NCBI GenBank assembly: GCA_946699065.1
Contig: CAMPDV010000848.1
Location: forward strand, 62,001 to 126,000
Direction of reading: 5' to 3'
DNA length: 64,000 nucleotides
Origin: Loxodes magnus
Taxonomy: Eukaryota; Ciliophora; Karyorelictea; Loxodida; Loxodidae
This document shows positions 1-31,687 of this stretch, piece by piece (position 1 is the stretch's first letter; each line of letters opens with the position of its first letter). The notes beneath the pieces were generated by a model. It saw only the letters and a list, made by a program, of their open reading frames with translations. It searched no databases and was not told the DNA's origin. The translations under genes and the position numbers were made by a program.

Positions 1-88
1 CAATACATAGAAAAATTATAGCAAGTACTGTCCATGTGAACTTCTTTAGAATACACCATTGTTATATTATATATATTAATTTTTAATA

Positions 89-4186: not shown

Positions 4187-4900
4187 ATGGAAACTTTCTC
4201 GTCATCAGTCTTTTCTTAAGAGGTTTCATCTTAATCAAGAAACGAATATTAAAAAATACTTTAAGAACTCAGAGTCATGCAACAACAAAATTTTAACTTA
4301 TTAGGACAAGTATAAGAACTAGAAAAGAAAACCGAATTTCTGATGATCAATGTGTAAGATAAAAAATTGGAAATAATAAGAAGAAAATGTTAAAATAGAA
4401 TAATCAGAACCTAAATTCAATCAATTCGTAGAATTGACGGGAAGAATACTTCTAACAAAGCTTTCGATGAATGATCTAATGGACGTAGAATAGCATATCC
4501 CAATAACTTATATTCCCTACGGAAAATTATGAGAATCTACTGCAATTTTGAAATAAAAATTTGATAGAAGAAAATACTCCAACTAAATAGAGAAGCTCCG
4601 CATATTTAACATGCATTTAATGAGTTCAATAAGAAATGAATGTGAATAGACCTATCGGAAACCATTAGAAAATAAAAAATTGAAAATCATGAGGACTTAT
4701 GCTAGACTTGACCCAGACAAATCGAAATTCTTTTGTTAAAAAAAACTATTAATTCGTGGAAAACCAAATAAAGGTGACTCCACGTTAATCAATTATTATT
4801 ATTATATTATTATAAAATTTACTTTAGTAAAATGAAAAAATGGAAAATTAGTTGTATTATTAAAGCAAAATTGATGAAATCCATCCATCAAATAAATTAA
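4187..4900 (+). CDS. LINE-B ORF1-like protein, copy A
   Basis: This frame begins METFSSSVFSQEVSS at 4187 with many TAA/TAG codons read as Gln. An N-terminal coiled coil is followed by a basic region and a C-terminal RGKPNKGDSTLINYY motif that recurs in three other genes of the unit. It lies directly upstream of endonuclease-like and RT-like sequence on the same strand, so it is best read as ORF1 of LINE-B. The copies differ by small indels that shift the frame at different points, so at least some are broken. The end at the TAA of 4898-4900 is arbitrary if TAA is sense. Confidence 0.55.
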
Positions 4901-5213
4901 AAATTACACATACTATATTCATCATCATGTAAAATTATTTATTTAATATTCATTTTAGATTAAAAATCTTCAGGCCATATAAAAGAAGTTTAATCTATTT
5001 TTAATCTAATAATATTATAGATTAAGCAATACTCAAAGATATAATTAAGAGGACTAAATGATTTATCATTTCTATGACATATATTTAGTTTTATCTTTAA
5101 TATTTAAAGCAAAAAAATCGTAAAACCACATTTACATAAATTCAAGTACATATGAATAAAATATTTGCTCGGTCGTAAAAATTGTTATAAAGAAATAACT
5201 TAAATCAGATTAG

Positions 5214-6480
5214 GATTGGGCATGTCAATATAAATGGAATAGCAAATAAATTTTACTTAATTGAAGTATTTATAAGAAAAAATAGTTTTGGCATTTTTCA
5301 ACCATCGAAACTTGTTTAAAACAATTTCTCTTAATTCTAATATAAGATTATTGACTGATCAGATAACAATTATGGTAAATTTTCTTTTAACATAATCCTC
5401 TATTAGGTATAATTATCTAAAGAAATATAAAATTAATAAACAATTAATAGATATGAGTGATCTAATAAATGTAGATATCTTTCCAAATAATCTTAAATAA
5501 ATCTAATTTAATATCAATTTTAATATATTTGGAAATAATATTTAATTACATAGAGAATATATTATTATTAGATTATCTGTGAAGAATTAAATTACCTTTG
5601 GGATTAATATAAGCATTTAAATCATACTATAAAAACCTTAGTTCATTATTTATTTAGAATTCTAGTCAATTTTAATATAACAATGGAATTAAGCAGAGAA
5701 GCTCACATTAACATATGATAGACCCCTTTGCATATGAGTAGATTATGATACTTTCGACCGTATAATGGAATGTAATTAGTAATTAGATATAAGGAAATGA
5801 CTATAGTATAAAGTTAGGAGTTTTTAAATAAAAAAATTTGATTCTTAATGATCGAGTCTATATAAACGCGTTTCCTAGAAGTTAAGAAATATAGGTAGAA
5901 TTACAAATAAAAATATTTCACAGATTAATACTTGATGGATGAATGGAGCTATTTAAAAAAGATATTAATGAATAATCAGAAGATGTTTAGATAAGATGCG
6001 AGGAGGAAGCGATATTAAGAAGCTTTTAAATTTAAATACTTTTAATTGAAAGAAAAATTCTGATAATTAAAGATGTCAAAATCATTTTAAGTTTAAATTT
6101 AAATTATTTAATAGCAATACACATAAATCTGAAAGATAAACTATTAAAATGATGGATATTAATTTTGGAGCTTTTTTAAAAATTTATTATTATAATTTAA
6201 AAACATTGAAAAATATATATTAAGTAGCTAGGATAATTGCAAAAGTTAAATATATTAAAATTATTAGAAAGAAATAAAACACTTAGATTCATATCAATTA
6301 TAAAAATTAAAAAATAGCGAACTAGCAAAAATATTATTTTTTTATACTAAAGAATTAAATAAAGAGCTATTTAATTAATTATTTATTTTTAGAGTTTGGG
6401 GACAACCTGGTTTTAGTTGTGTTGTGTTTTCTGATCGACTTTAACAAAGAAGGAAAAATAAAAATAAAAAAATTTTTTGC
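5214..6480 (+). pseudogene. LINE-B ORF2 remnant (endonuclease start and RT fragments), copy A
   Basis: An AP-endonuclease-like start (IGHVNINGIANKFYLIEVF) begins at about 5214. About 300 bp later comes an RT-like stretch (LLLDYLWRIKLPLGLI) parallel to the same segment of LINE-A, then a motif B-like NNGIKQRSSH (about 5680-5715), and near 6395-6420 a motif C-like FGDNLVLVV. The endonuclease to RT distance is far too short for an intact element and the frame changes repeatedly, so this is an internally deleted relic. The identification rests on local motifs only. Confidence 0.5.
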
Positions 6481-6785
6481 TTTGAGTAAATATTGATAAA
6501 ATTATAGGCTTAAAATAGCTATCTGTAATTACAAAATTTAATTTCTAAAATCTGGTTTCTTTCCGAAAATATTCTATTCATACTAAGATATGAGACATAA
6601 ATCAACTTTAAATGTTTATAAGATATAAACTACGCCTCATTGAAATTAAAAGAAATTAATAATTTTTAAAAACTATTTAATTATAAAAACATAAGTAATA
6701 AAATTATTTTTTTAACTTACTATTAGAAATGCAAAAGAATGAAAGTAAATATTAACTTATATATAGTAAATATTTTAGATTATTA

Positions 6786-7922
6786 AATCAAAAGAAATAA
6801 TAGTCTAATTAAAACATTATATTTTATAAGAATATTTTTTATAAAATTATTACTAATAAGCATGCTTCACATAAATTGCATTATATTTCAAATTGTATTT
6901 GTTAACCCATTCACTTAAACTATACTAAAACAGTAAATTTAAATTTTTCATTTCATTTTATTTTCTTTAAATTTTATTTCTATTGAAATTTTTAAAAGAT
7001 TTATTATAAAAAATCAAACTACATTACTATAAAATTATTAAGATATAGCATTTAAATTATGTTAATTGAAAGCATAAATACTATAAGAATTAATGCTTTA
7101 TATGACCAGTTTATAAACATTTTTATAAAAATAATAAAATATTGTAATATCATTATACCAATAGTATTAATACAGCTAAATTTAATTATTCATCATAGAT
7201 TCATATTGCCTTAACTTACTTTGTAGTTGAATAATTCCTTTATAAAAGTTACTTCTCTTAGTTATATAAGAAGAATGTTAAAAGATAATAGTAATAGAAT
7301 TGAAAATCTTAATTTAAATGTTAAAACTGTAATGCTTTTTCCTCAAATAATGATAATTTAATATGTATCTGCTATAAAAAGTTTATCTAATTAAATTTAC
7401 AAAAATAATAGTTTTATTAATTAATAATTATACTAAGAATATAATTAAAATAAGTAGAAGATATTACTTTTTAACTTATCAAAAAACTACCAAAATTAAT
7501 AGATTATTGATGATTATACCTTTGTATGAAAATAAAAGGTTTAAAAATTTGAAAATATTAAAGATACTTATGGCTTTAATTCTTTTAAAAATGATAACTA
7601 AAAAAATAAGAAACTTTATAGCTTGTAAGATAGATAATAATTAAGAATTTTAAGAATGTTAAAAAAGAAAAGAAAAATTTTTTGGAAATTGACAATTAGT
7701 TTGAACATGTTTTTGTAAATCAAACACGAAAAAATAATTTCTTCTTTGCAACTTAGTGTAAAGATTTACAAAAAATTTGCATAAATTTTATTGCAAAAGA
7801 TATAATAGTATTAATTTTAGAATTATTTCGTGATTTAAACATGTTTAGCAAAACCATTTTGATAATTATTAAAAAATAAAAGAGATACAGAAAAGTTTTT
7901 AGTATAAGTAAAATAAAATAAA
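6786..7922. other. AT-rich segment present only in copy A
   Basis: This stretch of about 1.1 kb is flanked by sequence shared with B and C, but those copies have the SINE-like element (33263-33574, 57911-58220) in its place. It is very A+T rich. I see no motif, RNA gene or convincing protein in it. It is either the ancestral sequence deleted when the element arrived or a later replacement. Confidence 0.7.
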
Positions 7923-9389
7923 GAAAACTTTAGCTTAATTTAAATTTATGCAATTGGATAACTATTGCTAAGTTTAAAAAGATTAGTATTTACTTTTAAT
8001 CTTTAATTAATTATTTATAAAAGTATTATTTGTATCTATTCATAAATATTTAAGAATTTTTAATAATAATCTAAATAAAAATGTCAAAAATATTAATAAC
8101 TATAAATGGTTGTAAGCTTATTTATATTTATAATGTATTTGTATATTTGCTTATTTTTAGTTTTTCTTTTAGCTACAAAATAATTATTAATGTAACTATT
8201 ATTCCATTTTAAAATGTTTGAAGATTCTATAATTTTAACAGATTTAAGATTATCATAAATAGTAAAATGATAATACTAAAATTAATATGCTTAATTTTTG
8301 AATATAATATATGGAAGCAAATTTTTCTGACAATTTTACTTTTATAAAAAATAAATAATTGCTTTTTGTTCAGTTAAAAAATTATTAGAATAATTATGTT
8401 TTAAAACTTAACCAAAAATAAATTTTTGTCTAATAGTTATAATAAAAAACAAACATATGCAAAATAAAATAATTTAAATTAAAAAAAAATAAAAAACTCA
8501 CAATCAGTTTATTTTTTATCCGCTCTTGGTATAAACTTTAAATATTGTTCATATCGATGGAACACATTGGCATCTGTATAGGGAATACGACACAATATAC
8601 CTGACATTCCTAAAAGAGAGCATCAAGTCATTTGGAAGAAAAAGAGCTTCCTTCCCGAACTTTCTAAATTTAAAATAATGATCTAATTTTGAAACTCCTA
8701 TCTAATGTAAAAAATGAAAAAATGAAATAAATATTATAAAACTAAAAGTTTACAATTGATTGATTTATTTAAATCTTAAAATAATTTTATCTATAAAATA
8801 AAATAAAAAAATGATTTTAAAAACTTTTTTTAATGTGATTTATTAACATTCGACCTAAGTCTTATCTAGTTTTTATGAAATATAACTTCTTCTTGTAAAC
8901 ATTGCAGTTGTTTATGTAGAATCATTTTATCTGTCTTCAGGTGAAAAAGTGCTCTTTTCTATAAAGATCAATAAAGTAATAAAAATGCTTTATTTTATGA
9001 AGAGAATAATTAAAACATAAGAAATCATATTACAAAAAAAAATGACTTAAATAATAAAATCAAAAAATAGTCCTTTTATTAAAAAAAAACGAAAAAATAA
9101 TTTGCCTGCATTTTTTTATTTGAAACTCTTACATTTTTCTCCAACAAAAAATACGTTTTTTTTATTCTATATCAAATATTTAAGACAGATTTTACCGATT
9201 TTTATACGAAAACATTTAAGATTAAAGAAATAGAATTAATAAAAACCTTATTTAGCTTAATTTATAATTTTTGTAATAAAGAAAAAAATTGCTAATAGTT
9301 ATTCTTTACTAAAAATGTCAGCTCAAATAATTAATTTAGTAAAGCAAAAACTTAAGAAAAATTCAAAAAACGATGATGGGATTCAAATT
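7923..9389. other. AT-rich region without a recognised gene, copy A
   Basis: Apart from the diverged SINE-like fragment at 8517-8640, no gene or RNA could be supported. Part of it (about 8533-8938) is absent from copies B and C, while B and C carry an extra 150 bp or so (34145-34300, 58790-58950). Coverage by homopolymer A runs makes frame reading unreliable. Confidence 0.6.
8517..8640 (+). mobile_element. Diverged fragment of the SINE-like element
   Basis: The stretch starts with TTATCCGCTCTTGGTA and continues through a CGATGGAAC segment and an AAAAGAGAGC segment. These match, in order, the second half of the solo element at 33263-33574, with many substitutions. Copies B and C keep only the first 16 or so bases (34329-34345, 58977-58994), because the next 405 bp are missing there. 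Confidence 0.6.
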
Positions 9390-10380
9390 TAGAAAAAATA
9401 GATTAAAAATCATATAAAAAAAATGAGATTATCTTACTTATAAACATTTTTTCATTCTTCTTTATTTAAAATTTCATAAAAACTTCGATTTAATCTTCTC
9501 AAATTCAATTACTCTTTCAGACTCAAACTTCCTTTATTACTCAAATTCTCACAAGTTTTTTTTATCAAATTTTCTTCATAAAAAAGTTTTCTTATTAAAT
9601 TTTTTTGCTTTATTTCATTTATTTTGATTTGGTTATTTTTATCTATAGCTTTTTATTTCGTTTTTTACTTTTTAATAATTTTTTTATGATTTTTTTTAGT
9701 TTGATTTTTTTTTACTTTCTTTTCTTTTAATTTTTTTTAGAAATTCTATTTCATCTAATATTTTACAAGTTTTATCATATCTTAACATCTTTCAAGCTTT
9801 CTGCATTTACAAAATAAGTTTTTTTTTCTTATTCACGTTGCTTTTTTTTAGGCTACAAAGAATTCTTTTTTTCAAAGCTAAGATTTATCATTACCTCCAT
9901 TTGTGAAGACCTTCTGGTTTTTTTTAATTAATCAAAGTGATTACTTAAATGGTTATATTTCAAAAGTTTTAAGCATTTAATTTGATTCTTTTTTTAATTT
10001 TTTTTTTTTAAGTGATGTTTTTCTCTAGTTATTTTTCCTTAATTAGTGATGTTTTCTTCATTACAGTTTTTTTTTAAAATCCATTTCGGATAAATTTAGA
10101 AGTTTCACTTTTGTTTTGCCTTGCTTTTTTTACTTTTTTATCTGATGTTACACGAATTTTACTTATAATTTGTTACTAACATCTCTCAAAGTATTTTTTC
10201 ATTAAATTCGTACATCATATTTTTAATGAAAATTCCTTACTATTTACTAAGATAAAAAAAGATTTGAAAATTTTTTTTCTAATGTTGTATTTTTCAATAT
10301 TATTGGTTTTTCCTCTTAACTCTTCTTTACATCTTTTTTCATATTGAATCAACAGAAATTTTCTTAATAAGGTAATTATT
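9390..10380 (-). pseudogene. Coiled-coil coding remnant, probably a LINE ORF2 tail, copy A
   Basis: Minus-strand reading with TAA/TAG as Gln gives charged helical segments such as EELRGKTNNIEKYNIRKK near 10320 and EFEQQRKFESERVIEFEKI near 9500. The character resembles the coiled tail after the zinc motif of LINE-A. It lies downstream of the ORF1-like genes on the same strand. Long T runs and copy-to-copy gaps interrupt it, and copy B lacks about 470 bp of it. No catalytic motif was found. Confidence 0.4.
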
Positions 10381-10979
10381 TTTTATTTTAAAAATTTAGA
10401 AAAGAAAGAAATATCAACAACGAGACAGGTAAGGCTAGAACATACTAGATTTTATAAAGAATAAAAAAAATTTTAAATAAAAGGAGATTAAAAAGGTTAA
10501 TTTTCGTGACTTCAAATAATTAGATTATAGTATTTTTTTAATATTTAGGTTTGCTTTTCAAATTAAGATTTATTTTAAGAAAAAATAAATATGAAAAGAA
10601 GATATAAAAGAAAAAATTGAGAAAAGTAGTAAGAGTATAGAGATCATAGAAAATGTTTAATTATGTTTCTTAAGCATAGAAATAATTATTTTCTTGCGTT
10701 TTTAACGTAAGTGCTACTTACCAGTTTAAATTTCTTTGTAGATTTCATATATGATATATAAAATATCATTATCAATTAGATACTTCGTTTGTATGATTTC
10801 CTTTTGTATGAATTTACCTCTTGTTACTTTAATTAACTTAATTATTTGTTAAAATTTTCAGTTATTTTCTAAATTCTTTTGTAATAATACTTTCATATTT
10901 AATTAGATTGTTCTAGTCTTAGATATAAATGTTATAAATCTTCATTTTATCAAAATCAAACTTATGATATTTCTTTATT

Positions 10980-11713
10980 CTAATATATTATTATAGCATA
11001 ACGCTATTATTTCTGGTCTCACCTTTATTTGGTTTACCACTTATTAGTTTGTTTTAAATTTGCTTGTATCTTCATTATCATGTTTCTTGATATTTTTAAG
11101 ATTTTTTTCCATTATTTTTTTCGATAGGCCTAATCGCTATCGTTTTCATTGAAATAGTTTACTGCCTTTTAGATATAAGGAGCTTTTTGGCTTAGTTGGA
11201 GTTTTTTACAGATTAAGCAAACATTCACTTGTCTTGCTTATTTTAAGCATATCTTACCATTTGATTTATATTAATCTCTTTTATTTTTATTAAAATTGGT
11301 AGCAATTTCTTACTTTATATAATGAAAGCTTGCAATGTCAACATATCATTATTTTCCGATAGGGAATATATTTTATTGCAGTTTGTTATTCTATTTCCAA
11401 TGAATCACTTTCTTTAAGTTTTTCTGGTTTAGTATTTTCAAATTTTAAATTTCTATTGCTATTTGTTCTGTCTGTAAAATTCCACCTTAAATTTGTTGCA
11501 AGCGCAGGTTTAGAGCAATTCCTATCGTAGTGTTGAATTTTCCTATTTTACAATTTCTATAGGATTTTACAATTCATTAGTTAGTTTATAAAGATCTTTA
11601 ATAACTTTTGCTATTTCTTAATTCTCTATCTAAAGATAGCAGAGATCATTGACTACATCCTACTAAGTTTTATAAGGTTTTGTTGGTGAAGTCTGTTATT
11701 TCTTAGGTACCAT
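10980..11713 (-). CDS. ORF1-like protein C, copy A
   Basis: The frame starts MVPKKQQTSPTKPYKTQQ at 11713 and runs through a helical region (ENQEIAKVIKDLYKLTNEL) to a CWHCKLSLYKVRNC segment, a CX2CX4YX4C variant of a zinc knuckle in which the usual His is Tyr. It ends near a KLISGKPNKGETRN motif at about 11020-11040. The frame changes at least once between the N-terminal part and the knuckle, so this may be a relic. Its start resembles that of the gene at 12959 (MASKKQQNSPTK), so the two are paralogues. Zinc knuckles are usual in ORF1 of many LINEs. Confidence 0.5.
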
Positions 11714-12189
11714 TTTATTTTTATATAATATATCTAAGAAATGTTTTTAAATAGTATACAAGCAGTACAGCTGATATGCTCTATGCAGATGAAGCACATC
11801 CTTTTATTTTTCTTTATATATTCTATATAATTTATTTAAATTATCTCTTCTATTTATTTAAAATCCATTTTATGATGTTTCAATCTATCTTATTATCTTT
11901 TTTATTTTTTAAATTGAAGAGTTAAAAGATTATTTTTTTTCAGCTTCTTTTCATCGCTTCTCTTTCATAAAGATATCTTTTTAATGATTAATTTTTTTTA
12001 ATTTTTTTTTTATTTTTAATTTAGCTAATGTTAAATACTTTTGTCTTAGCAATTTTTTTATTTTAAATTACTTCTTGTCTTCTTACATTTCTCTTATTCT
12101 CTTTTACTCTTAAACTCCTTAAAAATCCTATTATTCTTTTCACATTACACTTTAATTTACGTTTACTTCTTGTCCTTCAAATTTTTATG

Positions 12190-12959
12190 TTCCTTTTTTA
12201 TTTTAAATTAATATAATAATATATTAATGTGGCATCACCTTTATTTAGCTTACCATAAATTAGAGTTTATAGAGTTTTGTAGTAATTAATAGGTCTCGAG
12301 ATCGTATTATACTTGATTTTTTTAATCGTAAATTCTTATAACATTTTTATTTTCTCCTCTTGCTAATTCTTGTAAGTCAAATCCAGATTGTATCTCTCAA
12401 TGCCTTTTAGATTTTTGAAGTTTCTAAGAATGGTTAAAATATTTTTTCTTGAAAGTCTTCTAGTTGGCAAGCATAAGATCTCGAATAAATTTTAGATTTC
12501 TCTTTCAGTTACTTAAGATTGCTTCTTCTTAAATCGTTAACACTAATTAACCTTATGTCCATACTTATAGCAATATCAACATTTAATTTTTATTTTCTAA
12601 TAGAAAAAGTTTAGTTCGGATTCTTCTCCTTATGATTCTGAATTTGATAGTTAATTGAGCTTGGTATGCTCCAGTTAACTGATCCTCTGGTAAAAATTTT
12701 ATCTTAAATTTCATTCGATTTGACCAATTTATCTTTCTATCTATTTCTAAGGAAATAGTCTATTATTTAATTTCTTGCTTAGAGTCCTATTAATTTACCA
12801 ATTAGTTAATGGCTAACATGAGAGATTAAATTATTAATTTAAAGTCTTAAACTTCTTTTGCTAGCTTCTAATTATCCAATTGTAACAATAGAAATAGTTA
12901 GCAAAGTCTGGTTAATTTTTAGATTTTGTTGGAGAATTCTATTATTTCTTAGATGCCAT
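12190..12959 (-). CDS. ORF1-like zinc-knuckle protein D, copy A
   Basis: One uninterrupted frame runs from the ATG at 12959 (MASKKQQNSPTKSKNQPD) for about 250 codons. It has a Gln/Asn/Lys-rich N-terminus, a canonical CX2CX4HX4C zinc knuckle (CWYCYKYGHKVNQC, about 12545-12590), a helical basic region, and YGKLNKGDATLIYYY at about 12205-12250. Two Trp residues, one inside the knuckle, are encoded by TGA. Under TGA = stop the knuckle would be cut, which supports TGA = Trp. The protein probably binds nucleic acid as a LINE ORF1-type product. Coding character continues below 12190 and the true end is not clear. Confidence 0.62.
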
Positions 12960-14588
12960 TTTATATTAAATTATATTATATAATAATTTATTATTATTTT
13001 TTAATCAAGTAAAAACCAAAAAATCCAAGTTTAGTCCATTTTTAAAATTCTTCTATAATGTAAATCTCCAAAAATAACTCTACACTTTTCCTTTCTCTCT
13101 TAATTATATTTCTTTTTTTGTTTCTTTTACTTATTTAGTTAGTTATCTCTTTTCATCATTATCTATTCTTATATTCAAATTATTTTTACTTCTATAAATA
13201 GTTTATAAGATAATTCTTCTTTAACTTAGTTTTTCTTATCGATAAGTCTAAATAATTAAATTTATAAATATTTTAATATTTTTATTATATCTGAACTTAC
13301 TTTATTCTATTTTCTAAATTATTTTTTCATCATTCATGATTCTTTTATTTATTTATTTAATATATTTACGTTTTACCCCTTTTACTTAATTTTTCAAAAT
13401 TTTTTAGTCCGTTCCAATTTTTTTAGTCCAACCCAAAATTTTTAGTCCATCACAAAAAATCTCATGTAGTGTAAAAAGTTGAGCGAAAAAAAGGCTTTTT
13501 TATTTTTCACAATCTTTTAACAACTTCTATACACCAAATTGAACCTTTTTATTCTTCTAATCTACTCCCTTTAACTCCACTCACTCTTTCTCCTTTCTCA
13601 TATATTTTACACTCCTTCTTTCTTCTTTCAATTTTTTTTATTTTTTCCCTTGCTTACTTTTCTTTTCTTCTTTACTTTTTATTTTTTTCTCTTACAAAAT
13701 AAAATTTTTTTACTTTTTTATTCATTGTTCTTTTCTTTCTTGCTTTCATGCTTTCTTGCTTTCTTACTTTTAATTTTTTCTTTCTTACTTTTCTTTCTTT
13801 ATTACTTTCTTTTTTTTTGTTTCTTTCTTTTTTTCTTTTTTCTTTCTTACTTTTTTTCGTTTTTTTCTTTGTTTCTTTGTTTCTTTGTTTCTTCCTTTCT
13901 TTCTTTTTTCTTTTAAATTAAACTTGCAACACTTTTCTTATTTGTTAAATACAATACTTCCTATTTAAAACAGATAACTTACACCACACTCACTCTACTC
14001 ACTCTATACACACTTTAATCATTAACTCATTCTACTCTCTCAAACTTTACTTTCTTATTTTCCACTCTACCAACATAAAATTTAACCTTACAAAATCTAT
14101 TGGTTATTCCAATAATCCAATAACTCAATACACTCACTTTTAAATTCATCAATTGCCCCTCTCTAACTTTCTTAGCTTCATTATTTTATTTCATTCACAC
14201 AACTGAATTAAATACACACTATTTAATACTCTTTTTTCAAAAAAAATATAATAATAGCTCACTTATTCATCAAAACAATAATACTTCATTGAAACTATTT
14301 TACTCTTTAACACAATTGTTACTCACCACAAACCAAAAAAATATTCAATCTTTAATATTGAATAAATGAACTAAACACAATATATACATACTTTTTATAT
14401 ACTTCTTATATACTTTAAATATACTCAATTTATAATATATACATACCCATCAAATTATATCAATACTTTGAATGGTTTAAATAATTTAAATACTTTAAAT
14501 GATTTAAATAATTTAAATACTTTAAATTTAATTTAATAAATTAATAACTTATAATATAATTACTTATAACTGTCTTTATTAGAGAAAA
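12960..14588. other. Intergenic region, pyrimidine-rich, copy A
   Basis: These 1.6 kb lie between the start of gene D and the 3' end of the TRIM gene. They hold three units of the 20-bp repeat (13403-13455), a pyrimidine tract of about 370 bp with CTTT and TTTG microsatellites (13560-13930; the 88-codon frame there is low complexity), C-rich sequence without motifs, and a TTTAAA-type low-complexity stretch (14465-14530). I see no gene. The 3' side of the TRIM gene presumably contains its polyadenylation region. Confidence 0.65.
13403..13455. repeat. 20-bp tandem repeat, short form (copy A)
   Basis: Two to three units related to AGTCCGTTCCAAAATTTTTT are followed by AGTCCATCAC and a conserved segment of about 45 bp ending GCGAAAAAAAGGC. 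This is the collapsed or ancestral form of the array at 63503. Confidence 0.85.
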
Positions 14589-16970
14589 TCAACTCACTCC
14601 CAATTGCATAGATTTCCACTCTCTATTGTTCAAAGAACCAACTTTTATGTCATAAAAGTATATCACATTTGGCTATGATTTATGTTCACTACTCCACATT
14701 CATAAAATATTTTTCACATATTGACCATTGTATCAGAAAGCAGATAATTATTATGGATATTAACTACCATCCCTTATCATTGACCTAGAGTCAAACACAC
14801 AAGTTTACTAAAGATGATTATTTCTGTCCCAAATATAGGCACACTCAATCTCATTCACTCAAACACTTGCCAAATCAACTGCCGGCTTAGGTAATTCCAT
14901 TCCATACTACTAATACACACTCAATATTACGTCATATGATGATAAAAAACTTGAATTGCGGAAATTTTTAGATAAATCTGAATTTTATATTTGACCACCC
15001 ACAATCCAGACTCTCTCATATGATACCCATATTCCATTACCATAGATACAATCCTTATTACTCAACAATGGCCTAGACTTATTCAGAACTATGTCGTACG
15101 CCTCCAATGAATTATAGTAATTATAATAATCATGAGATGATTCAGACTTTGATTACGGATCCTACCCTCCTAATATATACAACAATCTATCATTGTCATA
15201 TCCCATTTAAGAAATTGCTCTTGGCTAGATCAAATTAGCAGATGCTTTTATCACTGAATCACTACCTTCACTACCAACACTACCAACAGTTATCTATAAG
15301 ATCTTATCCAGATATGATTTGGTACTTTCGCCACCTACCTAGATTAGTAACTCATCAGTGATCTACTGTGTCGAGGATCAATTGCCAGTTATTGGAGTCA
15401 TTGATGCTACCGCATTGTAAACACAGGGGTTTTTAATACTGTCCAACTTGTAAGATTGTATCTTATTGGTATTGCAGAATACTCTCCTATATACTTTTAT
15501 CTATTTAGTCTAAGATTTAGACTATTCCAAAACCAATGGTAAGTCTTTTAATTATTGTTCTTTTTACTTTAGCTATTCAGAATGGATTTTATTATCAGCT
15601 TCCAATTACTTATTAGCTGATTTTAAAACTTCTTACTCCTTCAATAAGATCTATGTCTACTCTTAGTAATTCAAGTTCTCTTATTATAGCTTGTTCAATT
15701 AGTTTTATAACTAAGTGATGGATTATCTACTAAGAGTTAAATCCTATTGAAGAACGGTTTTTTGCTGTTGAAGCTCTTATATCTCTTAATCATATTTGAG
15801 TTATTAGGCCTGATAGTAGTCGTCCTTATTCTTCAACTAAAGTTGATACTCATATGCATTTTGCTAGATGACTTGAAGATTTTCCTATTTAGTCCTTGCT
15901 AACTAATCAGTTAATTCCTAAATTGTCTTATTCTATCCGATGACTTATTGGCTTAAACCATTAACCTGACTAAAATATTAGGAAACCTATTGCTCTAGGG
16001 AGGTGATTTGATTGCGATATGCTTATTCTTTATTTTCGTACTAGAGGTATTATTATTGAATGTCTTAGTATAAGCGCTTTATGGCTAACTATAGTTGCTT
16101 GATCTAGTTAGCTTAGGCCTTCTAACTCTAGTAAACTTGGTTAGGCTAAAGCTATTGCGTTAGATGAGAAACGATAAAATTCTAGAGAGCCTATTGACTT
16201 AAATTCTCTCGACATACAATAGAGGATGATTAGGAGATACTCTAGAACTTATCCTAGATTGTTAACTCAAATTGATTCAACTAGTCCCTCTTATTCTCAC
16301 ACTGATTGATATTATCCTAAGAACTATTTGAGATAGCATCTATCTAGCTTTCTATCACCTGATAGTAATCAGATGTTTCTTTAACTAAATTCATTTACTT
16401 CTTTATTTAGTATTATTAATTATTCACCATCTTCTAACATGCCTACTTGATACTCTACTTGATCGATTGCTTTACCTAAACCATATTAGCCATTCTGGAT
16501 ATCTACTACTAACTTATCTGACTATACCATTAATTCAATGTAGATATATATTAGACCAGTCTCTACATGATAGCACTATAGGTAGATTCAAAGTAACTCT
16601 TTAAATGCTAGATTGCATCCTACGTAGCGATACATCTATGTCCTTAATGCGATATCAATTAACACTATACACAGATTCTTATGCTGTCCTATACGCAATA
16701 TAGAGTTAAGGAATACTATCTATGAATAGGGCAGACGTCCTAATGATTGATAAGGTTCTATACTTAATGACTTACTAAGTTCATAATTGATAATGACTCA
16801 ATTGGTCTAGTTGTGATGATGTTGTGCTTGTTGCATATAAACTTTTATTATAGCCTATAAATACCTTTCAAGCATCTCTCACATAGAATACATTCACAGT
16901 CCAATTATCTAGGCTTTCTAAGCTCTTAGTTGAAATATTTTTCACATAATTCACATTTGGCCGCTGACAT
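14589..16970 (-). CDS. TRIM-type protein: RING, B-box, coiled coil, Kelch-like (copy A)
   Basis: The 793-residue frame has no indel. It begins MSAAKCELCEKYF at 16970. A RING finger spans residues 6-49 (C6-x2-C9, C25-x-C27-x2-C30-x2-C33, C46-x2-H49). A type-2 B-box follows at 80-111 (C80-x2-H83, C92-x2-D95, C100-x2-C103, H108-x2-H111). About 115-520 is a Gln-rich coiled coil. From about 535, Kelch-like blades show Gly-Gly doublets at 546-547 (LLIQVGG), 601-602 (LYILGG) and 658-659 (VWIVGG). This is the architecture of an E3 ubiquitin ligase with a propeller for substrate binding. Gln is often TAA or TAG; residues 531, 704, 746 and 757 are TGA read as Trp; the frame ends at a TGA (14589-14591) before low-complexity AT. 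Under TGA = stop, the protein would be cut at 530 before the propeller. The start is set by the RING. A divergent gene begins 164 bp away. Confidence 0.88.
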
Positions 16971-17133
16971 TTAATTGTTTTATTGAGTAAAAAGTAGAAA
17001 TGCTACTTAATATTTGATTGGATAGAAATTACTTAAGAAATTAAATTAAATTAAATTAAATTAAACTAATTGAATGAAAATAGTTATTAAATTAAACAGA
17101 AAAAATTAACTACTTTTAAAATTATTACATAAA
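16971..17133. promoter_or_regulatory. Divergent intergenic region between TRIM and ORF1-like gene E
   Basis: The 163-bp gap between two divergent starts holds a TTAAA tandem run (17041-17065) that is shorter in copy B. It must contain the 5' control region of the TRIM gene, but no promoter motif could be named. Confidence 0.45.
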
Positions 17134-17860
17134 ATGGAAGAAAAAATAACCTCTAAAAGGAATAAATTACTTATAAAACTAAATACTTAGAAATAGATTT
17201 AACTAATAAAAAGAACAAACAGAAAAGAAACATGTGATGGTTTTAAGACTACTAATAGATAATAATATTCTAATTTTATTAAGTAAACATTATATAAACT
17301 AAATATAGATATAAATAGGTATCTAACCAAACTCATATAAAATTGATTTAATAAAAAGTTTTTCAAATTGTAGTAAACACATAAATAAAATGTGCTATTT
17401 TTAGATAAAAAGATAAAATAGATGATATATTATAATTTTTAATTAAAGCAGAATAGATAGTAAAGATGAATAAAATAATAAATATTTATTACTATTTCTA
17501 AATAAACTAAGGATAACAGTAAAGATTTAATGGAACAATTTAACACATAGAGACTTTATTAAATGAGAGAATTATATTCTAAAGCAAATACCTTGATGAT
17601 CTTAAGATTAATTCTTTTTACCTGACTAATTATATAAAAATTTAAACTATATTACTTACTTAATCTCTTCTAAAGTACTTAGCCTTTCTGTAAGATAAAT
17701 AAAATATATTAGACATTATAAAACTTTTTAACAGGAGCTAGATAAAGTAATTTATAAACTAATTAGTGGCAAACTAAATAAAGGTGAAGTCACTTTAATA
17801 AATTATGTTATGTTATGTTATTGTTCAACGATATTAAAAAATAATTTAAAGATAAAAAAT
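17134..17860 (+). CDS. ORF1-like protein E, copy A
   Basis: The frame opens MEEKITSKRNKLLIKLNTQ and is basic and Gln/Asn/Lys-rich. Near 17763-17810 another frame carries YKLISGKLNKGEVTLINY, the motif shared with the other ORF1-like genes. One frame change between the two parts is implied in both copies, so it is a relic or contains an unrecognised intron. No zinc knuckle was seen. It is probably a LINE ORF1 remnant divergent from the TRIM gene. Confidence 0.42.
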
Positions 17861-18730
17861 TTTTTTTTGCTTAACTCCAATATAAATAACTAACTGAATA
17901 TGACTTCCAATATGGTTTCATCTGAGTATGTTACTAAGTTTTTTATCTATATGTATTACTCCTTTGATCTAGAATTATTAGATAGTACCATCTAGTTACT
18001 CTAATGACTTTAAAACGCTTTTCTTCCATTACATAGACAATTTCGTATTCCTCTCTCCACTTATAATTAATAGGCTTATATCTCATTCGCAAATATTCTT
18101 ATCCTTCTTCATAGAGCTTTCTTAAATAAGGTAATTAGCATATAAAGTAGCTTCTCTCATAGAATCGTAATGGTATAGTTTTAGTTTAAGTAATAGTAAG
18201 ACATAAAATGATTTGAAATATTAAATATCCTAAGCTTATAATAAATAGTATAAATAATTAAGTAACTAATAAAGATAAAATCCACTTATCCTCTATGATA
18301 GAAATTTATCTTTTTCTCTAGGTCAAAAATTACAGTTCCAAAGTATTAAATTTGAACCTCTAATATTTGGATCTTTATCTTATAAATTTTAGGTTCTAAG
18401 AATCATTAGTTAGATATTCTACTTACTGGACTCTAATTTTTAATTTTTAAATTCCATCAGAAACTTATAGCTGAATCTACCTCCTAAATTCCTTTTAACG
18501 TTGATTAACTATTTCTAATTACTAGTCAGTATGTATTTCGATACTCAAGGGTTATGATAACTCTAGTATCACTCTCTTTGATATTCAATTCACGTTCTAA
18601 ATGAGCATTAGTAACTCTCCAATAATCTTTGAGACTTTAGATACCCTTAGTCCTTTAGAATAATCCCTACCTATCGAGATTCTTACTGTTCCTTCAGCTA
18701 ATCTAGCAAAGCTTTCTCTGTCTTAAGTAA
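17860..18730 (-). CDS. Unassigned protein F, copy A
   Basis: Minus-strand reading gives two good blocks. The N-terminal one (about 18730-18350) contains SLKDYWRVTNAHLEREL and RVIITLEYRNTYW. The C-terminal one (about 18130-17860) contains YLRKLYEEGQEYLRMRYK and YEIVYVMEEKRFKVIRV. They are in different frames, so an intron, an insertion near 18150-18300 or decay separates them. Differences from copy B in the second block are partly silent in this frame (TAC/TAT, CTA/TTA), which supports it. I do not recognise the family. Confidence 0.42.
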
Positions 18731-18734
18731 AATA

Positions 18735-19255
18735 CTTTGGTTAATTAAGAAGAGTTATAAGAGAAAAAAGAGTATTAAATGCTTTGAAAATGTGTCAGAT
18801 AATTAGCCTTAAGATTGTGATAGTACATTCAAAACCTCATTACTTTTTAATACCTAGGATCTTGAACAAAGGAGCAACAGAAAGGAAAAAGAAAATAATG
18901 AGGATATCAGTAATTTTGCTAGCAAATTCGATAAATTTAGCAGACATTTGGTAGATAGAACAGAAAAAGTAAGTAATTAATTGTAGGAAAAACATGGGAA
19001 ATGTACTTATGGAAGAAACATAATTATTGAATCTTGATCTTATTTTCCTTCTGTAAGGTAGTTATTTTTTTCTAAATTAGGTAAAACTCATGATTGTGAT
19101 TAGTTATTAAGCAGGTATTACATATAATTTAATGATGTTTAGAAGATATTAATTAGAATACTATTTGATGTTCTTAACAGAAGTTCTAAATTTTAGTTTG
19201 GATAGTTTTTAGTTAATATAATTGTAGCTTTATGATTTAGTCAGTAGTTTTAAAT
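18735..19255 (+). CDS. Unassigned protein G, copy A
   Basis: Plus-strand reading with TAA/TAG = Gln gives FENVSDNQPQDCDS, DLEQRSNRKEKENNEDIS, FDKFSRHLVDRTEKVS and then SYFPSVRQLFFSKLGK and FQFGQFLVNIIVALW, about 170 codons in one frame with two TGA as Trp. No clear ATG was found, so the start is uncertain; it may have an upstream exon. It is divergent from gene F with almost no gap. The family is not recognised. The hydrophilic, charged N-terminal half is unlike the surrounding T-rich DNA, which favours real coding. Confidence 0.45.
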
Positions 19256-19841
19256 AATAAGAGTTTTAATTTAATTTTAAGTATAATAAGAAATAATAAA
19301 TATTAAGAAATTCTTGATATTTATAGTACTAATCTTGTATATTTTCTTCTTTAAATTAATTATATTTATTTTGATGTATAAAAGTATATCATTTTCTAAA
19401 AAGTTAAACATTTTCTACATATAACTATAATTTTAGATTATCTAATAAGTAGATTCAAAAAGCTAAAATAATTCTATCAATTAAAAGCAATAAAAGTCTA
19501 ATTTATGAGTATTAACTATAAATTATTAATATCTAAATACAATTATTTTAAAGTATTCTGATAGTATTTATAATTTATTAATTATTTATCATCTATTAAG
19601 TTTAGATTTATTCTTAACTAAATTATCATTATTACCACATTATATTGCAATTATAATCATCATATCAAATCATTAGGCTCTTATTATCGTCATTTCATTA
19701 TCTTATAGAAAAAACTTTATACCATTTTATAACCTAATTTATGTTTTCTAAAGAGAGATTAAAAACATAGTAACATAGTTAGTCTAGTAAAAAGAACTTA
19801 GCTAACTTAGTTCAGCAATATGATGAAGTTAATAGTGTGAA

Positions 19842-21419
19842 ATGTGTTCGGGTAAAATGATTGCGAGGATCGAAAAGTCTGGGATAAATAAATCATACAA
19901 CTTTAATTTTAAGGTGATAATTCGAAGCGTTAAGTTAAATTTGAATTAAGCTACAAGATTTAAGATAAGACTTGAAAACTACCAAACCTTGTATCTGTAT
20001 TTTCCTAAACTAAAGGACTCCTTAGGATTTAATAATCAACCATCCTTTTTTTTAATATTAGCTTATTAAATGTACCCAGTGCTTTACTCTTTTTAGGTTA
20101 ATTAAATCTTGAAATTAGAGGTTCTTCCTATAGACTAATATGTTGGTTAAATGTTTAAAAAATAATGAAAAATGGTTTATTTAAATAAAGTTATAAATGA
20201 TTTCAGAATGTTTTATAATAATATAGCTTTAAACATATATATCTGTTATTTATATTTGATTAGAATATATTTTGGTAATGCTTCTATATTCTTATTATTG
20301 ATTAGTTGTTTAAATAATTCTTTATTATAATATCTGCTTTTTCTGTATTTATTATATTTACTATTAGAAATAAGAAAAGTAAAATTAAAAATATTTGAGT
20401 ATTTTGATTTATATATTAGCTAATCTAGCTTATATCTTACTAATAGTTTTATCTATATATGGAAAATAAACTTTTAATTTTTAGACTATATTCTGTAGTG
20501 TCTATTTTTAATATTTCTATTTTAATTATTTTAGTTCTTATGACAATTTTGACTAAAGTTGAAAATTTATAAAATAAATGTTGTTAATTTAAATAATGTA
20601 AAAAAGCAAAAGTTTGAAGATAGAATGATGGAAAAGAATAAGATTTTGTAATAGTTTGATATTAAATAAACTTTAAATATTTAATATTAATTTAAAATAA
20701 TTTATATTATTTTATTATTAATCACGAGATCAAATGTACATTTTTTATTAGTCTCTAATTTGCTTTATAGTCTATTATTTTGAAGTGAAAATCTTTAGTT
20801 TATTAAATATTTATGGGCTAAAATCCCTTTCGTTTAAAATTAATTACTACTATAAATACTAATTTATTTTTATTTGTTTTGTGTCCTATTAACCTTCTTC
20901 CTATTTCGGATGCTTGAGAAATCTTTCTAAATTTTTAATATCATCATATTGTAAAGAGTTTCAAATCTAAATTAAGATACTTAAAATATTCAAGAAACAT
21001 ATTTTAAAACAATTTCTGAAAAATAAATATTATACTTAACATAATCAGTTTGCTTAGTATTACCACTTTCTTTTATTTTATCCATTTTTAATTAATCGAA
21101 TTCTGATTTAATAAGAATCAATCATAATTTTATATAATTCCTTCAAATCTATAAAATAACTTGTTCAAAAGCAGAGTTTAAAAAATAATATTATATTGAT
21201 TATATAACTAAAAATAGTAATTTCTTTTACTATAGTTAAATTTATATAATATTTAATTATTTATTTCTTTTATATTAAGTTTATATTACTTTTATTAAGA
21301 ATATACTTCACCCTTTCTTCTAAAGATCTCCAATTTTTATACATTTGTATTTTAAACAATCCTATTTTTTATTTAAATTATCTTTAATAAAACAATATTT
21401 AAATATTACCATCTTATGA
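19842..21419 (+). CDS. Candidate multi-pass membrane protein H, copy A
   Basis: A 525-codon frame runs from ATG 19842 to TGA 21417-21419. Residues 1-80 are soluble and beta-like (FKVIIRSVKLNLNQATRFKI). After that come many hydrophobic segments (IFLLLISCLNNSLLQYLLFL, IIYIILLLI, ILIYFYLFCVLLTFFLF) separated by charged loops (KKQKFEDRMMEKNKILQQF). Four TGA codons are internal and would be Trp. The frame is the same length in copy B. T-rich DNA favours hydrophobic residues in any frame, so part of the membrane pattern may be compositional. An alternative frame starts MFSKERLKTQQHSQSSKK at 19741, which may be the true N-terminus if an intron joins them. The family is not recognised. Confidence 0.5.
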
Positions 21420-21488
21420 AAAAATACCTAATCTAATTATCTCTTTAAGAATTTACTTAGAAACTTAAGAGGAAAAACGATTCAAGAA

Positions 21489-22200
21489 ATGGACAAAAAC
21501 CAATAGAAATATGAGGAATCAAGATCTCAACAGAAGGTATAGGAACCTAAGAGATAGGGAAATCTTAAAATTAAATTGACCAAAATATTCTAAAATTTAC
21601 TAGACTGAATACAAAAACTAATCTAAATATGAAGAAATAATTACAATTAAGAGTAAAAAATCAGAGAATTAGTGAACATATTGACGACTAAAATAATGAG
21701 TTATTAATACTACGTCGTCAGCTAATCTAAAATAACTTAGTTTCAGAACAGTCTCTTTATGAGCAATCACAACTGATAGTTTTCAATTAAAAAGACGTGA
21801 TTATAAAAAGAGACTTAATTAAATTAATCGATTAAGTAGAAACTAGAAGGAAAAAATGATATTAATTTACAAAAGAGAACAGACAAATTGGAATGAAAGT
21901 GTTTTATGAAACAAATCCAGAAAAATATTCCAAAAACTGCTGATACTGCTATTTAATTAATCATGTTTTACGGCAATGCTGTTCCTGAAAATAACTTTTT
22001 TTGTTAAAAGAATAATTAAGAACATGATAGATGATGAACAAACTCTGAATAACTGAAAATAGAGTTTTTAAATAGAAAATTTAATTAAGAAATGAAGAAA
22101 ATTATGAGCAGTAACCTAACTCATATAAAAAAAGGCTTTCCACTTAAAAAAAATTATAGCAGGTATCTGGTTGAAAGCCCAAAGAAAGCTAAAACTTAAA
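21489..22200 (+). CDS. ORF1-like zinc-knuckle protein B, copy A
   Basis: The frame starts MDKNQQKYEESRSQQKVQEP, 70 bp after the TGA of gene H. A coiled-coil block in another frame (ISEHIDDQNNELLILRRQL, DVIIKRDLIKLIDQVETRRK) leads to CWYCYLINHVLRQC at about 21940-21985, a CX2CX4HX4C zinc knuckle whose Trp is TGA. The frame changes imply a relic. The ATATT microsatellite follows within 20 bp of the last readable part. It is similar in plan to the genes at 12959 and 11713. Confidence 0.48.
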
Positions 22201-22213
22201 TTTTTAAGTATAT

Positions 22214-22568
22214 TATAATAATATAATATAATATTATATTATATTATATTATATTATATTATATTATATTATATTATATTATATTATATTATATTATATT
22301 ATATTATATTATATTATATTATATTATATTATATTATATTATATTATATTATATTATATTATATTATATTATATTATATTATATTATATTATATTATATT
22401 ATATTATATTATATATATATTATATTATATTATATTATATTATATTATATTATATTATATTATATTATATTATATTATATTATATTATATTATATTATAT
22501 TATATTATATTATATTATATTATATTATAATAATATAATATTATATTATATAATATTATATTATATTA
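22214..22568. repeat. ATATT microsatellite, long allele (copy A)
   Basis: About 350 bp of nearly perfect ATATT pentamers with one ATAT interruption near 22411. Edges carry imperfect inverted ATAATATT pieces. The matching place in copy B has only about 40 bp. Confidence 0.97.
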
Positions 22569-22569
22569 T

Positions 22570-24439
22570 CAATTATATTAAAAATAGAAAGTAAATCTTG
22601 TTACAATCGCATAATTTTAAATTATTAAATTTGTATTTATTTTACTAAAAATTAGCTTTTAGTCTAAAATATTTCTCCAATATACAATAGTCTTTAATTT
22701 ATATAATTTTAAACTTTTTAAAATTAATAGAGTAATCTATAAATGATTTTAGTAAATAGATATTAAAAGCAATAATGGTTATAAAGCTTAAGTTTAATAA
22801 TTAAATAAATTAGTCTCTAGACTATTATTATAACTAATTTTTTATAAAGCTGCAAATATAAAAAATATTGAATAAAAGCAATTTTTATTTAAATATCTTT
22901 GTATAGAATTTATTTAAATTCTATTTTACTTAAATTTGAATATTATAATTACTTATTTATAAGTATATCTAGTATTGTAAAAATTATACTTAATTATCCG
23001 TTATAAATAAATTTTAAGTCTTATTTTTATAAATTTAAATTAAGGCTTTTCACTTATTTAAATTAAAGATTTAAATAATTTGTTCTATTATTTATTTTGC
23101 TTTGCAATTTTATTTCCTTTAATGATGATTTTAAAGTTCTCTAATTTTTAAATAAATTTAAAAAATATAAATTGTTTATTTTTAACATACGTAACCTAAT
23201 CTCCATTAACTATCTGTTTATAATTTTTAATGATGATTTTACAAATTAAAATTCCTATAATTTAGAGATTTTGTAAATGTTTAATAATTTTAAATGTAGA
23301 ATATAAATTAGTGTCTAAAATATAACTAATTTTGATTTAATTAATTTAAAATAAGTATATAATATTTTATACTTATCTAAAATACCTAAATTATTTTCAA
23401 TCTACAACAGTTTATATAATTTATTCTCATTTAATGAAATAAGATATTTGACTAAGCCAATTCAATATTAAAAATTATTTAGATTTGGGTGTAGTTCATA
23501 AATATATCTAAACATTTACTTCAGCTTAGTGTTTTTCTTTAAATAAATCTAAATTTATGTAAATGTTTATAAATTTGAACTTTTAAAGATTTTATGACAT
23601 CACTTCTTAAATATTCTATGACAGTAAAATTTAAAATTTTAGTCTCTTTAAATTTTAAACCTTATTTACTATTATAGAGAATATTAACTTACAAAAGTAA
23701 GATAATTAATAATATTTCAATATTTTTACTTTTCCTACTTTAAATAAAACAGATTAAAAAGTAAAATGGATTAAGTAATTAAATAGCGTAATAGCATAAT
23801 ATACAGATGAATATCACTAAAAACTTTCATATAAATCAATAAATATTTACTAGCTAAATTTTATTAGGTATTTATTTAATTATAATCCTTTTATATACAT
23901 TAATGCTACTTAACTATCTATTTTTATCAAATCTATAGATTTTTTCAACTAAATTCAGTATTAATCAAATAAGAAAATTATATGTATACTTTAAAACGAA
24001 TGCTTCATTTTATTTTTATAATCACCCTATTATGGATGTTTATTACAAATTAAATAATTATACAAATATTAAATAATCGCTAAAATAATCCAAATGTAAA
24101 CATTTTATAAAATTAGAAAGAAAATGCTTCAGAACCATCTATAATTAATCTGAATTATCACTTACAAATATAACTATTAATATCCTACTTATAAAGTAAA
24201 TAGCAATAACTAAACGCATCCAAACAAAAAGTTAATTAATTAGTTAAAATTTAATTAGAAATATTTTAAGCTTCTTTAGAACTAATGCTTATTAGAAAAA
24301 ATAAATACTTATAGTAATTCAAAATTTAGGCAGATGTTTCAAAATTGTTTAATTATATTTTATTTATAATCTTAAATAAATTCAGGTAACGCCATTTTCT
24401 TTTTTTCAAGAACCAATCAAATCTTATTTAAATTTAAAA
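22570..24439. other. AT-rich region without a recognised gene, copy A
   Basis: I see no RNA gene, motif or convincing frame on either strand. It is strongly conserved between copies A and B because of the recent duplication, not because of demonstrable function. The matching region is 47181-49055. Confidence 0.6.
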
Positions 24440-24850
24440 TGAAGCCTCAATTTAAAATAAACAGTAAAAATAACTTTAAAATAGTCAGAAAATTCAAGTT
24501 AAATAAAGGAATGGGAATAAGAGTTCAAAAGAAGAATAAAATGCTACGTGTACAGTAAACGGTGCTGATGAAATAATGTAACTAAATAAAAGCATTTTGA
24601 GAAAAAAAAGATATTTATAAAATTTTATTAAGAATATATCCAACATAAAGCGGAAGATCTATAAAAAAAAATTATATAATTCAAATTTTAATCCTTGGAA
24701 AAAGAATATCTATGATCTCTACAAGCAGAACATTAAAAGATGGGGCGATAATGAAATGCTACACTGCCTACCTAAGCCTAGTAGGATTTTTAACCAAATA
24801 AATGGAGACAAGCTGATAGAATAGATCAGATAATTATCTACTAACATTTT
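24440..24850 (+). CDS. Unassigned coding-like stretch convergent with LINE-A, copy A
   Basis: Plus-strand reading from about 24520 gives VNGADEIMQLNKSILRKKR and then WKKNIYDLYKQNIKRWGDNE and MLHCLPKPSRIFNQINGDKL, a charged, balanced sequence in one frame. The start is unclear: an ATG at 24440 lies in another frame and is absent from copy B. It may be a short host exon or the tail of another LINE ORF2. It converges with the LINE-A 3' end, so the boundary near 24850 is approximate. Confidence 0.38.
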
Positions 24851-26570
24851 TTTAAAAATCCTTTAACTTTTTTTATTTGATATCTGTTCCAATGTCAGGA
24901 ATTTTTTAAGTAGTTTTTCCTATTCTTAAATCCTTTCGAGAACTAATCTGAGTATTTTTTCTGCTCTTTCTTTACATTTAAAAGACTAAATTTCTCTTTC
25001 ATATTAATAATTCTTATTTAAATTTAAATTTACTAAAAATGTCTATACTATATTATTTATAGTAATAAAAAAGTTTGAATTTTGGAACTCTTTCTCAACT
25101 TTTCTACTCTTGTATTAAATTTAATTCTAAATCATTTTTTACAGTTAATGTGTTGATTTAATTTCCCTTTTTTTAAATAGAAGTTCTTTTTCAAACTAAT
25201 CTTTTTACTCAATGATTTCTATTCTTCTTCTGAGCAGTTTTTTATGAAAAATCTTGATTCTATGGTCAATTTTCTTGAGCTACTGAATACTTATAAAGTT
25301 CTCATTTAAATATTTTTGGTTATAGGTTAAGAGATTTAATAAATCATAATTTTTAAAGTCTTTAAATTCTTCAATTAACTCTTTCAAGACCTCACATGTT
25401 GGAATATGTCTAAAAGTACCAAGGTCTCCGCAAGAACATGTTTCAAAGCTTTAAATGTTATAATACTTTTACAGCAAATCATATTAGAAGTTATAGGAAA
25501 ATGTTATAAGCTTATAAATCGATATAATTTCTCTTACCATATGTTTGTTAAGATTAGAGCAAGTGTAGATTGGGAATTATGAGGTGTTATTGTCAATTTA
25601 ATTTACATATAAGCATGCTGTAGGCATTAAGTTCATTCTTATTATTGAATCTAAATAAAATTTTTGTCTTATTTTATTTTAAACTACTTGTAGGAATTCT
25701 TTGCTTTCTTTAACATCCAAATAATCAAATTAAAAATGCAGGGAAAGTTTCTATAATTTTTTAAAATAATTAAGATTACTGTTTTTTGTTTTATTATAGA
25801 GAAAAACTATATCAGATTTAGGATTTGTTTCTTTTTCTTCTAGTAATTTGAGATAAAATTTAAAGTATCTCATGGATATATAATATTCAAATGGATGTCA
25901 ATTCAAATATATGAAGCAAAATTCGTTAAAAGAGGATCTAGGACTCTTAAATGCATATCTTGATACTTTTCTCTGACTAATATTTATATCTTTTTTGATT
26001 TTCTTTATTCCTTTTAGAATAGATCATGGTATTATTTCCGATCCATATTCAATTTTCGATAATATAAAAGATTGAAAGATTTATTTAAAATTTTATGGCG
26101 AAATATTTCTATATTTTGCAAGTTATAGCAAAGTTCCATTCACACATTTCCCTATACTTTCGGCAAATTTCATAAAAAATGAATTTTATAATTTTATAGT
26201 TCATTAAAATTAAATCCTAAATATGTAACATTTTTTACTTTTTGATAATGTTATTATTCAAATTAATATTAAAATCTTAATCATTTTATTTTTAATTCTT
26301 CTTAAGAAAACATATATATTCACATTTTTCTGTATTAATTGATAGTTTTACTCAACTAAACAATTTTCAAACAGCTTTTATTAAAGAATTCATATTATCT
26401 TCATTTGAAATCAATAAAAAATCATCAGCCCATTCTTTAGTTACAAAATAACAGTTCAAAATTTTAAATATAATCTAATACCAATATCATAGAAAATTAT
26501 AGCAAGTACTGGCCCATGTGAACTTCTTTAGAATACACCATTGTTATATTATATATATTAATTTTTAATA

Positions 26571-27061
26571 CCGCCATAGTTGTTCGAAGGTGAACAACAA
26601 GGTCATCTTCATCAGAGGTTGGGGAAGTTAAGTACCCATAATCGACTTTATGTCTTCCTCTGCTTTGGTTTGACCTCGAGACATAAGATTCTTAGACCTT
26701 CGACACTGGCTTGACTTGGCTTCGTTTATTTTTAATACTGGAACGAAAAAGAAATAATATTGCGAGCTTCATCAGAGGTGGGGAATTTAAGTACCCATAA
26801 TTGACACATATCGTCCTCTGCTTTGGTGATGCAATGAGACACATTCCTGCCATGTCCTTGGACCTCCAGCAAGTATTAAAGATTACGAGTATTCTAAAAT
26901 TATATCAGTATTGAACATTTTTATCAGTACTGAATAATTATACCAGTATTGAACAAGGTTCACCAGTATCTGATAATTTTATCAGTAATAAACATTCTTG
27001 TCAGTATGAAACATTTTTTTTTAAAGAGCTGCGCACCAACGAGAGTGCTACGCGCTCTATA
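26571..27061. repeat. Non-coding block interrupting LINE-A reverse transcriptase, copy B
   Basis: RT coding sense stops just above 27061 (FLLDGKLSRML) and resumes below 26571 (GVFQRSSHGPVLA), where an intact RT needs only a few residues between. The block has three parts: a tandem pair of about 160 bp beginning CTTCATCAGAGG at 26607 and 26767; five to six short units of about 20 bp containing CAGTATTGAA or CAGTAC variants (26907-27012); and a GC-rich imperfect hairpin at 27024-27059 (GAGCTGCGCAC against its near-complement). AT-rich edges give no clear target duplication. It may be an inserted non-autonomous element or an intron-like block. Confidence 0.65.
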
Positions 27062-31369: not shown

Positions 31370-31687
31370 AAATTACAAATACTATATTCATCATCATGTA
31401 AAATTATTATATTTAATATTCATTTTAGATTAAAAATCTTCATGCTAAAAAAATTAAGTTTAATTTATTTTTAATCTAATAATATTATAGATTAAGCAAT
31501 ACTCAAAGATATAATTAAGAGACTAAATGATTTATCATTTCTATGACATATATTTAGTTTTATCTTTAATATTTAAGCAAAAAGAATTGTAAAACATGAC
31601 ACATTTACATAAATTCAAGTACATATGAATAAAATATTTGCTCGGTTGTAAAAATTATTATAAAGAAATAACTTAAGTCAGATTAGG

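Follow-up and report, generated by a model that had tools for sequence, protein, structure and literature searches.

The 64,000-nucleotide stretch of Loxodes magnus DNA analyzed here (hereafter, the window) most probably uses the karyorelict nuclear code, NCBI translation table 27, a reading to which we assign a probability of roughly 95%. Under this code, TAA and TAG would be sense codons fitting Gln, internal TGA would fit Trp and TGA would also end genes, with the gene at positions 14589 to 16970 being an intact member of a TRIM-like family. The code of L. magnus is already in print as table 27, with UGA standing for Trp or stop (PMC11441545), as is the decoding tRNA, and nothing reported here is new with regard to the code itself. 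An annotation in which every TGA is a stop would cut the encoded protein at residue 530, which matters for annotating the L. magnus genome; the raw sequence confirms that the gene is intact despite its internal TGAs.

The TRIM-like gene lies on the minus strand, where its frame runs from an inferred ATG start (16970 to 16968) through 793 sense codons to a TGA at 14591 to 14589 (residue 794). The frame contains 42 TAA and 53 TAG codons (95 in total) and 4 sense TGAs, at residues 531 (15378 to 15380), 704 (14859 to 14861), 746 (14733 to 14735) and 757 (14700 to 14702), exactly where the preliminary description had placed them, compared with 15 to 30 TGAs in each of the five alternative frames over this region. 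A B-box zinc finger is recognizable at residues 77 to 114 (16629 to 16742; PF00643, E = 7e-8, 32.9 bits against a cut-off of 24.1), and a Kelch-like stretch at residues 584 to 637 (15060 to 15221), wholly 3′ of TGA 531, matches PF13418 (Kelch_4) with E = 0.003 and a score of 17.9 bits, which does not reach the 21.6-bit cut-off. A RING domain is hinted at by a zf-C3HC4_4 match (Pfam; E = 0.5, 11 bits), under the cut-off of 30. Because only the B-box passes its cut-off and the PDB matches of the protein, to TRIM3 and Midline-2, are weak (E = 0.002-0.003), we keep the name at "TRIM-like." As a candidate for the coiled coil that follows the B-box in TRIM proteins, a Gln-rich stretch is visible in the translation; an AlphaFold model of residues 496 to 793, built with 22 paralogues, had a pLDDT of 34 and was discarded. 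The family search showed that the window contains one more copy, also on the minus strand (39524 to 41905; L012), with 99.0% protein identity.

Searching the assembly (705,730,643 bases in 7,843 contigs) revealed relatives of this gene at 57 or more genomic places, merged by hand from 122 rows. Thirty family loci were fetched, and after removal of L031, which has a split frame, and L034, which is the same place as L035, 28 members were aligned; all but L030 and L035 (26/28) have an ATG at the aligned start. Codon usage per alignment column was compared in a non-redundant set of 24 members obtained with a 97% identity filter. The preliminary description held that Trp suits the context of all 4 internal TGAs, and the strength of this proposal varies among them. 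At residue 757, 22 of the 28 members carry TGG and 6 carry TGA. Swaps between the two codons also occur at columns 648 and 655 (27 TGG and 1 TGA each) and at column 148 (21 TGG, 1 TGA and 6 other codons), giving four columns in which TGG and TGA replace each other. By contrast, residue 531 is TGA in 20 members and TGG in none, the remaining 8 carrying non-Trp codons (5 Phe, all TTT; 2 Thr, ACT and ACC; 1 Ala, GCC); judged by the alignment, it is the weakest Trp case and does not appear to be a conserved Trp. Residues 704 and 746 are TGA in all 28 members. Columns in which Trp is encoded by a single codon are not unusually common in the family (5/8, compared with 5/8 for Glu and 4/11 for Lys), and we therefore read no special signal into these two invariant TGAs.

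Across the non-redundant set, TGA is present in 4 of the 7 columns that are mainly TGG but in just 1 of the 42 that are mainly TAA (Fisher p = 8e-4), even though TAA is likewise one transition away from TGA. When all other one-step neighbor columns are pooled, TAA included, the contrast becomes 4/7 versus 3/128 (p = 9e-5). The 24 members contain 85 sense TGAs, 52 of them in columns that are at least 90% TGA or TGG and 33 elsewhere.

As to TAA and TAG, they occur side by side with CAA or CAG in 17 of the 54 columns where every one of the 28 members has Gln, although in columns with any TAA or TAG, CAA and CAG account for only 336 of the 1,487 other codons. Candidate decoding tRNAs with anticodons UUA and CUA are encoded in the genome: the UUA form has 418 matches (at most 1 mismatch), all with UUA among the 100 matches listed, and a single pattern covering the CUA and CUG forms has 530 matches (at most 2 mismatches), all with CUA or CUG among the 100 matches listed. 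ARAGORN recognized tRNA genes with UUA (L050), CUA (L052 and L059) and CUG (L057 and L058), although its own labels for the UUA and CUA genes are Stop and Pyl; at L060, a likely CUG place, it found no tRNA gene. All five genes have an anticodon stem of 5 pairs, the top pair of L050 being U-G. Since the UUA and CUA tRNAs are alike to the tRNA-Gln(CUG) genes, we infer that they carry Gln. Both the reading of TAA and TAG as Gln throughout the gene and the anticipated UUA and CUA tRNA-Gln genes are thus upheld, and, on codon and tRNA gene content, the two codons appear to be sense codons fitting Gln.

The assignment of TGA was further examined in proteins unrelated to the TRIM-like family. The Prp8 gene, for which there is one genomic match, comprises 2,286 codons with 19 in-frame TGAs. 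The best-matching chain of known structure from each search, either Prp8 or 8xi2 (labelled MPN domain-containing protein), has Trp opposite 16 of the 19, Tyr opposite 2 and Ala opposite 1. A single TGA occurs in the second-subunit domain of RNA polymerase I, opposite Leu within a variable segment (0/1 Trp), and the other polymerase loci (L053, L055 and L056) have no TGA within the matched part. For both proteins together, 16 of 20 TGAs fall on Trp, with a chance probability of approximately 5e-22 at a Trp share of 2.8%. This homologue alignment bears out the karyorelict-type code named in the preliminary description, and internal TGA, as judged from aligned residues, would fit Trp.

The gene ends point in turn to a second role of the same codon. 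The exact codon of the terminal TGA shifts among the 28 members, but by no more than a few codons, as expected of stops. Downstream of it, conservation drops: 100 to 500 nt past the stop, five of seven divergent members show identities of 0.35-0.50 and the other two of 0.65-0.67, compared with 0.79-0.89 over the last 790 nt of coding sequence and 0.37-0.47 in shuffled controls, while two near copies keep an identity of 0.99-1.00. The GC content falls from 33.7% in codons 532 to 793 to 21.3% over the 600 bases past the terminal TGA, in line with the earlier claim that the gene ends at a TGA directly before low-complexity AT. On the other side of the gene, five of the seven divergent copies keep a similarity of 82-89% over the 500 nt 5′ of it, with 0.58 in L030 and too little flank in L036. 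The alignment of Prp8 stops 15 codons short of its terminal TGA, with 18 residues of the best chain still to come at that point. A TGA also closes the frame of each eRF1 copy, a few codons beyond the aligned part, and one or two more TGAs come after it. In this small gene sample, TGA is the only end seen (28/28 family members, Prp8 and 2/2 eRF1 copies), and it would accordingly serve as a stop as well as a sense codon. Sense TGAs keep a distance from the end: the one closest to the stop is 37 to 50 codons away in 24/24 family members, with none within 36 codons, and 81 codons away in Prp8. TAG is also absent over the last 24 codons in 24/24 members, an observation from one gene family.

These data bear on two opposite simplifications. 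If TGA were solely a stop, the gene would end at residue 530 and its 3′ part would be a relic. TGA 531 is indeed the first in-frame TGA, and selection is weaker downstream of it: over 276 pairs from 24 members (L010 to L013 being left out; the pairs are not independent), the median dN/dS under table 27 is 0.34 for codons 1 to 530 and 0.54 from codon 532 onward. However, the latter ratio is below 1 in 275/276 pairs, and values below 1 are also found after residue 704 (251/274 usable pairs) and, as a weak signal, in the last 36 codons (215/269 usable pairs). Together with the preservation of TGA 704 and 746 in every member, 3′ frames that are open to the same end, and the many TGAs of Prp8, most of them at Trp, this leaves a dead 3′ part very improbable; on these ratios, the frame past TGA 531 is conserved, under purifying selection and apparently alive. 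The converse proposal, that TGA codes for Trp everywhere and a different signal ends the gene, draws on the internal TGAs, which are plainly sense, but it leaves unaccounted for the terminal TGA that lies near the family end in every member while shifting as stops do, as well as the TGA ends of Prp8 and both eRF1 copies near the ends of their homologues, and we give it hardly any credence.

Table 27, with its dual use of TGA, also fares better than two readings in which the internal TGAs would be something other than ordinary Trp codons. L. magnus has very short introns, with a mean of 19.3 bp (PMC11441545), and GT..AG pairs of 15 to 26 nt do span TGA 704 and 757; such pairs, however, span 470 of the 794 codons, none lies over TGA 531 or 746, and each of the 16 Trp-aligned TGAs of Prp8 stands opposite one Trp residue with no adjoining insertion in the alignments, so that removal of the TGAs by splicing is highly unlikely. 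UGA can also encode selenocysteine in such ciliates, according to PMC4967479, and low-level readthrough occurs in standard-code organisms, but neither would be expected to place TGA opposite Trp at 16 of 20 positions, several times per gene, and to swap it with TGG within a family; this is the least probable of the readings considered. A dead 3′ part, TGA that is never a stop, TGAs inside short introns and selenocysteine were accordingly all rejected.

The tRNA genes offer a clue to how internal UGA might be read. The preliminary description proposed looking for a tRNA-Trp with a UCA anticodon. The tRNA-Trp identified has 126 matching places, and among the 100 listed, a single sequence with CCA accounts for 98 and UCA occurs in none; a pattern for the UCA form of that same sequence matched 0 places genome-wide (the CCA control being on the found gene only), although a UCA tRNA-Trp of a different sequence may exist. 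The anticodon stem of tRNA-Trp(CCA) has 4 pairs, with A27·C43 open (L046, L047 and L049; numbering ours). A 4-bp-stem tRNA-Trp(CCA) is said, in PMC13092985 and PMC12005148, to be reported for Loxodes. A genome search with RF00005 returned 63 places, and the 8 examined were all tRNA-Lys. Contigs C67, C148, C112, C130, C154, C214 and C1433 of the assembly (G000) carry tandemly arrayed tRNA genes or tRNA-like matches for Trp (CCA) and for Gln-like forms (CUG, CUA, UUA and UUG), the units being approximately 187, 241, 275, 588, 1264 and 1740 bases apart.

Two eRF1 genes, with clustered TGAs at their ends, were identified (L040/L045 and L041; G000:C196); the eRF1_1 match on contig C2 (L039/L044) is presumably Pelota. 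Compared with human eRF1 (human numbering, 1dt9 row), the aligned copy carries E55A, T58R, S60Q, S70A and Y125F and retains NIKS, and positions 55, 58, 60, 70 and 125 of the other copy hold identical residues; in both, the TAS preceding NIKS is replaced by RAQ. These substitutions call for caution, because PMC4967479 could not clearly tie individual eRF1 changes to particular codes across ciliates. Presumably, internal UGA would be read by tRNA-Trp(CCA) with its 4-bp anticodon stem (A27·C43 unpaired), eRF1 would be weakened for UGA, and termination at UGA would be confined to sites close to the 3′ end of the mRNA, where proximity of the poly(A) tail would favor eRF1. The last step is the poly(A)-proximity model of PMC11441545 and of PMC4967479, and context-dependent termination as invoked here rests on that published work.

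The neighborhood of the TRIM-like gene was analyzed as well. The zinc-knuckle gene on the same strand (11900 to 12959, with an approximate 3′ end) had been described as carrying a TGA at a Trp-like position, and an in-frame TGA is indeed found inside its CCHC motif (C-TGA-Y-C...H...C; TGA at 12576 to 12578) and likewise in the motifs at 37525 and 62688. The LINE-A reverse transcriptase with Trp-like TGAs that had been listed beside it was not recovered: no reverse transcriptase was detected by Pfam at E ≤ 0.01 (0.05 in one scan) in the frames scanned, namely whole frames on both strands over 1 to 13000 (less 6901 to 6999 on the plus strand) and 18000 to 26500, and 20 single ORFs. Pfam coverage of 13001 to 17999 was the gene itself and one ORF, and that of most of 26482 to 63567, which consists of copies of 1 to 34989 at 94.6-98.2% identity, was three single ORFs. 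Nor was a transposase found by Pfam in the window frames scanned.

A zinc-knuckle relative is located 1.35 to 4.0 kb downstream of the TRIM-like gene, on the same strand, at 45 of the 57 places, and at none of the 57 was one found 5′ of the gene or on the opposite strand in a range of 7 kb; both place tables are lower bounds, with overlapping zinc-knuckle rows omitted. From their arrangement, the two genes look like an ordered two-gene module that may be spreading or has been duplicated as a unit. Positions 1 to 63567 of the window are largely copies of a unit of about 24.6 to 24.9 kb, approximately 95-98% identical (97-98% in the longest matches), with the gene pair inside it; repeat pairs include 10126 to 22266 with 35046 to 47193 and 22521 to 34989 with 47134 to 59634. 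Related genes at C848:50427, 76592 and 101527, plus a divergent one at 127465, point to a more extended array. The gene pair and the eRF1 substitutions are the parts of this analysis that we consider worth following up.

The code of Condylostoma magnum, translation table 28, differs from the one described here in that all three codons can act as stops there, whereas the ends examined in L. magnus are TGA, with no TAA or TAG end seen. Shared features, as given in PMC4967479, are that all 64 codons can be sense, that termination is context dependent, and that the tRNA-Trp is of the CCA type with no UCA form detected. Agreement is closest with the published karyorelict table 27 (Swart 2016; Seah 2022; Seah 2024 for L. 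magnus), with which the present genome shares UAA and UAG as Gln, UGA as Trp in genes and as the sole stop, the lack of sense UGA just before the stop and AT-rich sequence past it. According to PMC11441545, UGA and UAA are depleted and UAG is not, whereas in the one gene family studied here TAG is missing near the stop too; apart from this point, we found no difference.

Resemblance extends beyond ciliates. Loxodes may, tentatively, have arrived at UGA = Trp through the same pair of changes as Blastocrithidia, a trypanosomatid unrelated to it: an open-stem tRNA-Trp(CCA) combined with an eRF1 weakened for UGA at Ser70, although we regard this as less likely than not. If it is true, UGA termination would have to be assisted from the 3′ end of the mRNA. 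For the eRF1 half, we came across no report on Loxodes in the literature searched, outside of which fall the 2022 Peer Community Journal paper and most subscription papers. Blastocrithidia differs in that UAR is Glu, UAA is the stop and UGA is no stop there, but, according to PMC12153298, it has the same 4-bp-stem tRNA-Trp(CCA) and an eRF1 likewise changed at Ser70, to Gly there and to Ala in L. magnus.
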